Assembly: GCF_001870515.1 (NCBI RefSeq)
Contig: NZ_MDGT01000004.1
Span: 62,001 to 126,000 of the forward strand
Length of the DNA stretch: 64,000 nucleotides
From: Idiomarina sp. MD25a
Lineage (GTDB): Bacteria; Pseudomonadota; Gammaproteobacteria; Enterobacterales; Alteromonadaceae
Reading direction: 5' to 3'
The position numbers and the translations under genes are program-made. How positions within the stretch are numbered: the stretch's first letter is position 1; each line of letters begins with the position of its first letter. This document shows, piece by piece, positions 41,491 through 44,298 of the stretch. The notes below the pieces were generated by a model. It worked only from the letters and a program-made list of their open reading frames with translations, was not told where the DNA came from and made no database searches.

Positions 41491-41527
41491 AAAAAAGGCC
41501 TGCCAAGTTAACTTGGCAGGCCTTTTT
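41491..41527. terminator. Bidirectional terminator between proA and waaA-kdkA
   Basis: Nearly perfect palindrome: AAAAAGGCCTGCCAAG, loop TTAA, CTTGGCAGGCCTTTTT. Sixteen base pairs including the A/T flanks. Confidence 0.95.
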
Positions 41528-41548: not shown

Positions 41549-43543
41549 CTAACCTTTTTCGTAACCCGTCAGTAACTCGGGCCAGTCACGACTCTCTTTC
41601 CAATAAAAGGTATCGTACTTTGACTTTTCCTTTTTCAATGAGCGCAATAGCCTGTCTAAATTTTCTTTTTTCCACTCACCTGGTTCTCTGAACCCACACT
41701 TATCAAAATCAACGATCCACGGCTTATCATTATCATCGAGCATGATATTGTGGCAGTTCAAGTCTGAGTGAAACACATTCTTATCGTGTAACTGCCGTAT
41801 CGCAGCGCCCAACGATTGCCATTGTTCTACATTCAATTGACGTTCACGAAGCAAACGGTAAACATCCACGGCACCGGGAATCACCTCAACTAAAATATCT
41901 GCGGTGTAGCTCATAACACCCACTTTGCGCATACGAGCAGCAATAGGCCGAGGTACAGGTAAATTTTGATTGCGTAGCTTTACCAACAAATCAAACTCTG
42001 CGATAGCACGGCTTCGCTCTACCGGCTCTCGCATAAACTTATCTTTATTGACCTTACCTACAAGCCCACCACGATAATAGTGCCGCAACACCATGCCGTG
42101 GTCACCCTGCTGGATGAACCATACCGTTGCTCGACCCGTTGCATTACCTGCTATCGCTTTTTTCTGCTGCCAATATTTGGCAGAAAAAAAGTTATCCTCA
42201 AATTCTGGCAACACGTCCTTATCAAACTTAATCACATCACGTTTTGTCGTAAATGTCGCTATCATTTGCTGTCCTATATCGCTAAATCTTTGCGCATGCT
42301 CAAGCATACGTCGACTGGCGCCCTGATGCGTGCTAAGCACGTTTTCAGCGGCACTTACGCTCGCTTTTCTTACTGAATCATTATCAAATAAATATTGCAG
42401 AGGTGTGGCAAGATCAAAATCCTTAGCCCAATGCACGGCCCGCTGCTTGTCTAACAACCGATACACCTCGGCAAAATTAAATATGTGCTTTCCACTGATA
42501 ACAGCTGAGCTTGCCGCTACGGCCTCGAGCGGATTATGTCCGCCTCGCTGAATTAAACTTCCACCCACGAAAGTCACCTGAGCAACACTGCACCATTTCA
42601 ACATCTCGCCAATTGAGTCGGCTAACAACACATTACAGCGAGTTGAGATACCTTGATCACTCAACTCACTGCGGCGCATCCAATCGAGTTCAGAACTCTG
42701 GAGCTGCGCTGCAACTTCGTCAAACCGCTCAGGATGACGTGGTGCCCAAATCAGCAGCATCGCTGGATACGTTGCTAACAGTTTTTGATGAGCGCTCAGT
42801 ACAGCTTGTTCCTCGCCTGGATGGGTACTTGCAGCAAGCCAGACTAATCGATTTCCGCGCAATTTCAGCAGTTGCTCTGCAGCAGCTTCTTCTGATGTGG
42901 GCACGGACACATCATATTTCAAGTTACCATCAATATAGAGTCGCTTATCTCTTACCCCCAAACATAACATGCGCTTACTCGTTGCACGTGATTGGGCACC
43001 AACGTAGGCTAGGCTTCGCCAAGATTCACGCATCAGTTTCCCAACCCGAGCGTAACCACGCGCTGAGCGTTTCGATAGACGTGCATTTAGGAGGCTCACT
43101 GGAATATGACGTTGGCCGGCGTGATACAACAAATTAGGCCAAAGCTCAGTTTCCATCACCCAAATCGCGCGCGGTCTGAGCTTCGACAGAAAGCTCCGCA
43201 CTGCACAAGGATGATCGATGGGCAAGTAACACACAGTCACCCTATCACCAAAACTTTGCTCAATAAGACGACGCGCGGTAGGCGTCATGCAGCTAATTGT
43301 AATGGGGCTATTAGGAAACTGTTCAATGGCTTGTTGGATCAATTGGCGCGCAGCTATCGTCTCACCGACCGATACGGTATGAATAAGTAGCCCATTTTGC
43401 TGAGCATCAGTCACCGCGAGCTTACCGAGTCGTTCAGCAAGGTGCGCTCGATAACCGTTATCTTTTCGGCCTCTATAATAGAACCAAGCAAGCGCCAACG
43501 GTGCAACGCCTGTCATTACACCGCTGTAGAGCCAACGTAACAT
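41549..43543 (-). CDS. waaA: Fused Kdo transferase (WaaA) and Kdo kinase (KdkA)
   Basis: 664 residues. Residues 1-about 428 are a complete WaaA: an N-terminal membrane anchor, HTVSVGET with catalytic Glu61, METELWPN, IWAPRHPERF and VGGSLIQRGGHNPLEA. Residues about 450-664 are a KdkA-type kinase: HSDLNCHNIML (Asp594 and Asn599) and the DFG-like VDFDKCGFR (612-620). WaaA attaches Kdo to lipid IVA; KdkA phosphorylates that Kdo in Haemophilus and Vibrio. The reading frame is continuous with no break at the join. I know these as separate genes; the fusion suggests transfer and phosphorylation are done by one polypeptide. Confidence 0.93.
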   Translation of the reverse strand: MLRWLYSGVMTGVAPLALAWFYYRGRKDNGYRAHLAERLGKLAVTDAQQNGLLIHTVSVGETIAARQLIQQAIEQFPNSPITISCMTPTARRLIEQSFGDRVTVCYLPIDHPCAVRSFLSKLRPRAIWVMETELWPNLLYHAGQRHIPVSLLNARLSKRSARGYARVGKLMRESWRSLAYVGAQSRATSKRMLCLGVRDKRLYIDGNLKYDVSVPTSEEAAAEQLLKLRGNRLVWLAASTHPGEEQAVLSAHQKLLATYPAMLLIWAPRHPERFDEVAAQLQSSELDWMRRSELSDQGISTRCNVLLADSIGEMLKWCSVAQVTFVGGSLIQRGGHNPLEAVAASSAVISGKHIFNFAEVYRLLDKQRAVHWAKDFDLATPLQYLFDNDSVRKASVSAAENVLSTHQGASRRMLEHAQRFSDIGQQMIATFTTKRDVIKFDKDVLPEFEDNFFSAKYWQQKKAIAGNATGRATVWFIQQGDHGMVLRHYYRGGLVGKVNKDKFMREPVERSRAIAEFDLLVKLRNQNLPVPRPIAARMRKVGVMSYTADILVEVIPGAVDVYRLLRERQLNVEQWQSLGAAIRQLHDKNVFHSDLNCHNIMLDDNDKPWIVDFDKCGFREPGEWKKENLDRLLRSLKKEKSKYDTFYWKESRDWPELLTGYEKG

Positions 43544-43545
43544 GC

Positions 43546-44298
43546 TTATTGCCAGTATTCAGCTATCCAACGAGTCGGCAGAACTTTGCGATACCACTTT
43601 CCACTTCGTCCTGCCAACGCATCATCAGGGTGTGGTTTACCGTGGAAAATAATAACACGCGCATCATCGGGGATCCGCGGCTGTTGGAAAAAGCTCAACG
43701 GGAATGGTCGAATACAATGACGTTTAAAGCTTCGACACCACTTCTCTGGCCAGTACTTCAGACGATTTTGGCGGTCGACAAATTGTGTAATGTATTCTTG
43801 TTCATTACGTACAGGCTCCGTCGCTTTCTCTGGATCGGCTTTTAAATAATCCAGCGCATCCTCATGAGCGCCCGCTTCAAAACGGAATACCGAGGTATTA
43901 CCGGTAGCATCTGACTTGTCCCACTCTTTAATAACCATGAAGTCACCTTCCGGTTTAAAAAAGTCATCGAGCGAACCAACAATGACGATGTCCAAATCAA
44001 GAAACAGCGTGGGTCCGGTTAAATCAGAAAGTGGATTCGCAAAACACGTTAACTTCAACCACCCATGTGCTTTCGCCCATGCTTTCTTCTCGTCGAAATC
44101 TTCAAACCCAATTTTTGGAATCGGCTTAACTTCGACCTCATCACGAATACCTTCTGCTTCGTCTGTAAAGCATACAAATCGATAGGGTAGGCTCAGGTTC
44201 CGGCTGACCATCGAGTACAATGTATTGACGTAGTCGTTCCCGTATTTGTCACCCCATTTGATGCAGATTACATTAACTTTTTGTTGTGCGTCGCTCAT
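43546..44298 (-). CDS. Putative cell-envelope glycosyltransferase
   Basis: 250 residues, no membrane segment. VNVICIKWGDKYGNDYVNTLYSMV at the start and the metal motif FLDLDIVIVGSLDD indicate a GT-A fold resembling family 8 transferases. Sugar donor and acceptor cannot be told. It ends two bases before the WaaA-KdkA start and is surely co-transcribed, so lipopolysaccharide core is the likeliest target. AGGGAG precedes the ATG. Confidence 0.78.
   Translation of the reverse strand: MSDAQQKVNVICIKWGDKYGNDYVNTLYSMVSRNLSLPYRFVCFTDEAEGIRDEVEVKPIPKIGFEDFDEKKAWAKAHGWLKLTCFANPLSDLTGPTLFLDLDIVIVGSLDDFFKPEGDFMVIKEWDKSDATGNTSVFRFEAGAHEDALDYLKADPEKATEPVRNEQEYITQFVDRQNRLKYWPEKWCRSFKRHCIRPFPLSFFQQPRIPDDARVIIFHGKPHPDDALAGRSGKWYRKVLPTRWIAEYWQ

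Follow-up and report, generated by a model that had tools for sequence, protein, structure and literature searches.

A conserved waaA-kdkA fusion gene in Idiomarina, with a Shine-Dalgarno sequence and ATG kept at the native kinase start

In Idiomarina sp. MD25a the Kdo transferase WaaA and the Kdo kinase KdkA are encoded as two parts of one uninterrupted gene, and the same arrangement is conserved across the genus and in several related genera. This is a real fusion within a known pathway. What is new here is that a Shine-Dalgarno sequence and an in-frame ATG have been kept within the fused gene, where the native kdkA would begin, and we regard this kept kinase start as the most interesting and most testable part of the fusion. 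The conservation of such a signal at that position indicates that the gene probably yields a free kinase as well as the fusion. We found no report of a WaaA-KdkA fusion in the open-access literature (titles, abstract openings and selected passages), nor any that combined internal translation initiation with Kdo; domain databases may already list the architecture.

The fused gene and its two enzyme parts

The window, that is the whole stretch of 64,000 nucleotides analysed, carries on its minus strand a stop-free frame of 664 codons running from 43543 to 41549 (Table 1). An earlier note on this DNA had placed the gene correctly and left out the strand; its claim that the frame holds a complete WaaA followed by a complete KdkA-type kinase is borne out by Pfam, NCBIfam and the catalytic residues. 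Glycos_transf_N matches residues 34-212 (E 1.3e-54, 184.9 bits against a cut-off of 23.9) and the Kdo/WaaP kinase domain PF06293 matches 456-661 (E 5.5e-46, 157.1 bits against 21.3), while the NCBIfam Kdo kinase model PRK01723 scores 281.4 bits against a cut-off of 142 at 428-663. The waaA equivalog PRK05749.1-4 missed its cut-off by 3 bits (434.9 against 438, residues 1-419) and was the closest of five NCBIfam waaA models, all of them below cut-off and the other four further below. This is a near miss at one curated threshold, and on its remaining features we class the N-terminal part as WaaA. In a profile search of the genome the fusion is the sole PF04413 match, and the only other PF06293 match is weak and partial (contig C5, E 1.4e-4).

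Table 1. Features of the fusion locus (window coordinates)
Feature	Coordinates	Strand	Basis or remark
waaA-kdkA fusion gene, 664 codons + stop	41549..43543	-	Pfam and NCBIfam domains; one frame in 18/19 genus genomes
WaaA (Kdo transferase) part, residues 1-419	42287..43543	-	NCBIfam PRK05749.1-4 at 1-419; Foldseek top match WaaA 2xci, E 1.3e-20
KdkA (Kdo kinase) part, residues 428-664	41552..42262	-	NCBIfam PRK01723 at 428-663; Pfam PF06293 at 456-661; first kinase strand from 428 (AlphaFold)
Internal Shine-Dalgarno-like AGGA, 6 bases before the internal ATG	42272..42275	-	same in 17/17 genus fused genes other than G012
Internal in-frame ATG (Met427), at the native kdkA start position	42263..42265	-	alignment with unfused G014; conservation
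Nested frame for a putative free KdkA, 238 codons + stop	41549..42265	-	internal start signal
P0002, 250-aa putative glycosyltransferase, candidate Kdo O-5 glucosyltransferase	43546..44298	-	two bases upstream of the fusion; weak glycogenin structural match
Perfect palindrome, 36 bases, A and T ends, in the proA / fusion gene interval	41492..41527	.	probable shared terminator

The motifs named in the earlier note are all present in the translation: Glu61, METELWPN (130-137), HSDLNCHNIML (592-602) and VDFDKCGFR (from 611). Glu61, in an SVGE motif, we take to be the catalytic Glu of WaaA, and HxDLxxxN and DFD presumably supply the kinase catalytic residues, here D594, N599, D612 and D614; all five are identical in 47 of 47 fused proteins. 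A plain extension of WaaA lacking kinase residues, which the note had considered for the C-terminal part, is thereby ruled out, and the stop or frameshift that it had envisaged at the join does not appear, the frame being open across it in 18 of the 19 genomes of the genus.

An AlphaFold model of the whole chain, built with 37 fused relatives, is confident (mean pLDDT 91.1, pTM 0.81). The final helix of WaaA stops at residue 421 and the first strand of the kinase begins at 428, so that the join, which the note had put near 430-450, exists and lies slightly earlier, at about 421-428. Searched against solved structures with Foldseek, the WaaA part has as its best match the Aquifex aeolicus enzyme (TM by target 0.72), and human PRPK, a kinase, appears at rank 50.

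By eye, the start of the fusion lacks a clear Shine-Dalgarno sequence and lies two bases past the stop codon of the upstream gene, P0002 (TAAGCATG, window 43543-43548); together these suggest translational coupling from P0002 to the fusion gene. The palindrome beyond the other end of the gene was absent from the output of a terminator scan.

Distribution and origin of the fusion

Within the window's genus the fusion occupies one frame in 18 of 19 genomes, the exception (G014) having two genes. Named matches include I. baltica (94%), I. fontislapidosi (85%), I. seosinensis (61%) and I. rhizosphaerae (55%), and a metagenome-assembled genome of Idiomarinaceae matches at 95%; the remaining 28 of the 33 loci in that search belong to Aeromonas and matched in the WaaA part only. 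Among the matches listed for 295 sampled genomes of the family, where fused rows rank top, at least 65 are fused (64 full-length rows free of stops and G121, which has both halves within one 706-codon frame). By genus, these matches give 15/16 for the window's genus, 14/14 for g51, 15/15 for g18, 14/15 for g69, 5/6 for g66, 1/13 for g11 and 1/1 for g72. The two enzymes had been familiar to the note's author only as separate genes; that layout holds in unfused relatives, but fused genes are conserved across several genera.

Outside the family, no full-length fusion appeared among the matches listed for 394 genomes sampled from the order, 369 from the class and 398 from the phylum. Fifteen further genomes, 14 outside the family and one (G286) inside, have a WaaA frame of about 590 codons or more and no full-length match; in the stretches inspected, with a Pfam scan covering 6 of the 15 loci, none has WaaA and a Kdo kinase in one frame. 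A different combination was seen once, in another family of the phylum: in G1128, a genome 75% complete, an 816-codon frame (L129:1508-3955) joins WaaA (PF04413, 35-212) to LpxK, the tetraacyldisaccharide 4'-kinase (PF02606, 462-791), and the frame of a relative in the same genus (L130) is without LpxK.

A quick tree of each domain (73 WaaA rows, 70 kinase rows) requires at least five switches between the fused and separate states. These trees left out 28 Aeromonas loci (L039-L066), the named copies (L034-L038), repeats (L023-L025, L075) and the outgroup loci L026, L027, L029 and L031-L033. In the WaaA tree a single branch holds 46 of the 47 fused rows together with eight unfused rows, seven of g11 plus G014, and the fused row of G250 adjoins unfused g11 rows. 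The remaining fused row, G089, falls with unfused relatives in each of the two trees, away from the other fusions, and has the appearance of an independent fusion event. Among fused genes of the window's genus, divergence is much faster in WaaA than in the kinase: P0001 and L009, for example, share 48% identity over the former half and 73% over the latter.

The unfused relatives suggest how the fusion arose. In G014, G028, G100, G021, G273, G084 and G244, waaA and kdkA lie on the same strand and adjoin or overlap; elsewhere they form same-strand pairs about 1 kb apart, are distant (G235, G161) or, outside the family, lie on opposite strands. Since such neighbouring same-strand genes persist, loss of the stop codon between them is the likely route. 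Two loci resemble near-fusions, with waaA and kdkA adjacent and in the same frame: one stop separates them in G084 (L095), and two stops 12 bases apart in G244 (L096).

The upstream gene and the lipooligosaccharide core

P0002 adjoins the fusion on its upstream side in 18 of the 19 genus genomes and is absent from G014. Heptosyltransferase genes of family GT9 show the reverse pattern, with none in those 18 genomes and a copy in G014. In the wider family, GT9 is missing from eight further genomes in which a relative of P0002 lies upstream of the fusion (complete in six, truncated by the stretch end in two). Conversely, G104, G256, G242 and G086 carry GT9, and the stretches inspected show no P0002 relative; G035 likewise has GT9 and lacks a P0002 relative. 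The exceptions to this exclusion are G038, outside the family, which has both, and G028, which has neither. Among 60 relatives P0002 was found in the 18 genus genomes, G038 and G057, and it also occurs in stretches of g51, g66, g18 and g69.

What P0002 resembles is less plain. It matches no Pfam family at E 0.001 and no NCBIfam family, across its 26 relatives any Pfam matches are at chance level (from E 0.03), and by sequence it has no relative among solved structures (best E 0.39). Being well conserved and without such a family, it perhaps represents an undescribed family of glycosyltransferases. Its structural model is weak (mean pLDDT 58.4), so that a match to glycogenin, a glucosyltransferase (E 7.1e-3, TM 0.39), serves as a lead only.

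The core structure published for a species of the genus bears on both genes. For I. zobellii KMM 231T the lipooligosaccharide is given as Neu-(2-6)-Glc-(1-5)-Kdo4P-(2-6)-GlcN4P-GlcN1P, with a single Kdo carrying a 4-phosphate, glucose on O-5 and no heptose (PMC9695755). A mono-functional WaaA acting with a Kdo kinase would give one phosphorylated Kdo, and the earlier note had predicted this from the fusion; the prediction agrees with this structure. The note's suggestion that the upstream glycosyltransferase adds the next sugar likewise gains support from the absence of GT9 in the 18 genomes with P0002 and from the glucose on Kdo O-5. Together, the mutual exclusion in the genus and the published glucose make P0002 a candidate Kdo glucosyltransferase, and we consider it likely that it acts at O-5; it would then be a candidate gene for the attachment of glucose to Kdo in heptose-free cores. 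The I. zobellii structure is the expected product of the fusion and the upstream glycosyltransferase, gene and structure being linked at the level of the genus. Kdo4P is also found in Kangiella japonica, of a different genus, though in a core with heptose (PMC12472108).

The internal start signal and the proposed mechanism

In unfused G014, kdkA starts 10 bases past the stop codon of waaA, at MIEQQTSASETIVYDD, and its Met aligns with Met427 of the fusion, where the counterpart in the window begins (MIATFTTKRDVIKFD). In all 17 genus genes compared, G012 being left out, Gly424 is encoded by GGA with an A directly ahead of it, and codon 427 is ATG, although the intervening residues vary. For a residue shared between subclades of the genus, of which there are three, the probability of an identical codon is 0.38 gene-wide and 0.86 in the best window of the linker, and the top seven of 612 codon-conservation windows all lie in the linker. 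When three representatives are used, the linker remains first among 629 windows. Shuffles reached as high a maximum anywhere in the gene in 215 of 300 cases and at the linker in 5 of 300, which makes the place of the maximum unusual but not its height. In g51 taken by itself, other windows score above the linker.

The signal extends beyond the genus. A Shine-Dalgarno tetramer and an in-frame linker ATG, 6 to 11 bases apart, occur in 36 of the 47 fused genes. Counted by 27 representatives of the 47, a set that omits near copies as well as G263, G250 and G089, it is present in 4/4 from the window's genus, 10/10 from g51 and 4/4 from g66 with part of g18, and in 0/9 from a fourth group made up of g69 and the remainder of g18. 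The grouping is one of convenience, and the last two groups are not clean branches of the trees. As a control, other in-frame ATGs with such a signal number 0/55, 1/94, 0/32 and 0/96 by group, or 1/277 in total and 1/181 within the three signal-bearing groups, in each of which none of 500 synonymous shuffles reached the observed count. In g51 the signal is made with AGG in 9 of 12 genes; this codon accounts for 19 of the 621 Arg codons there, nine of them at this site. An internal promoter in place of an internal ribosome site gained no support from a simple promoter scan, which gave no site near the linker and, between 41400 and 44700, found 3 sites against 5.0 expected from shuffling.

From these patterns we consider that ribosomes probably also initiate at Met427 and release a free kinase. 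We lean towards a nested pair, in which a single mRNA would give the WaaA-KdkA fusion, bound to the membrane, and also free KdkA through a selected internal start, leaving the kinase in surplus over the transferase. There is a real, if minority, chance that the gene makes the fusion only, in which case the internal AGGA and ATG would be a relic, or would cause a pause that aids folding of the first domain. The 11 of 47 fused genes that manage without an internal start, including both outlying fusions (G250, G089) and all nine representatives of the fourth group, fit that view and show that the internal start is not required for every fusion; the energy of the Shine-Dalgarno pairing is also moderate in the genus (-3.9 to -4.3 kcal/mol, rank 1 to 4 among in-frame ATGs). 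A relic is harder to reconcile with an AGGA and ATG that are kept while nearby amino acids change, in genes of such low overall codon identity across the three subclades, and the spacing to the in-frame ATG fits initiation. Moreover, the mRNA at the site is less folded than the gene mean in 27 of 27 genes tested (of 30; three g51 genes without AGGA were skipped).

Two other readings concern the fusion itself. WaaP-type kinases phosphorylate other sugars, and PF06293 spans them as well, so one part of the fusion might be inactive or have a different substrate, the kinase acting, for example, on another sugar. We think this improbable, given five invariant catalytic residues, a Kdo kinase score of 281 against a cut-off of 142, the lack of a second strong Kdo kinase match in the genome and the Kdo 4-phosphate of a species of the genus (PMC9695755). 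That the join is an artefact of assembly or sequencing is scarcely conceivable: the same open frame recurs in several other genera and in separately deposited Idiomarina records, and as a general explanation assembly error is ruled out by the 18 fused genomes of 19 in the genus.

Our overall explanation is that a stop codon between adjacent, same-strand waaA and kdkA genes was lost, and that kdkA kept its ribosome-binding site and its start codon inside the resulting frame in Idiomarina and in two further groups of related genera. The WaaA part would add one Kdo onto lipid IVA and the KdkA part of the same polypeptide would then phosphorylate it at O-4, so that, as we infer from domains and catalytic residues, both activities would reside in one chain. 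Ribosomes that also started at Met427 would supply free kinase, and P0002 would place glucose on O-5 of the phosphorylated Kdo, replacing heptose. Taken as a whole, we hold this explanation with considerable confidence.

In Vibrio cholerae, Haemophilus and Bordetella, Kdo phosphate is required before LpxL-type acyltransferases act (PMC3178793), and because of this an unphosphorylated Kdo intermediate could stall the assembly of lipid A; a tethered kinase would avert such stalling. The family displays side by side what may be the stages of the process, from distant genes through adjacent genes to fusions with and without the kinase start, and this allows tests of why enzymes of consecutive steps fuse and of whether a fused gene still makes one partner alone. 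If the nested pair is real, relatives without the internal start would depend on the fusion alone, and the family offers a natural comparison of tethered and free kinase at a step of the lipopolysaccharide core.

These features have analogues in other systems. Haemophilus influenzae and Vibrio cholerae have a mono-functional WaaA and a KdkA that yield one phosphorylated Kdo (PMC3078933, PMC3178793); the activities and their order are the same, but theirs are two separate proteins, whereas Idiomarina has one chain and possibly a second product. The I. zobellii work concerns structure only, and its main text contains neither 'WaaA' nor 'genome' (PMC9695755). Among solved structures, the N-terminal part is closest to Aquifex aeolicus WaaA (2xci), and the CMP-Kdo domain of Acinetobacter WaaA (4bfc) is also among the best matches, but both are WaaA-only chains, of 352-354 and 193 residues respectively. 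For the internal start the nearest analogues are cheA and infB, in which an internal start gives a long and a short product. The common feature is a nested in-frame start with its own Shine-Dalgarno sequence, the second product in Idiomarina being one that the sequence predicts.
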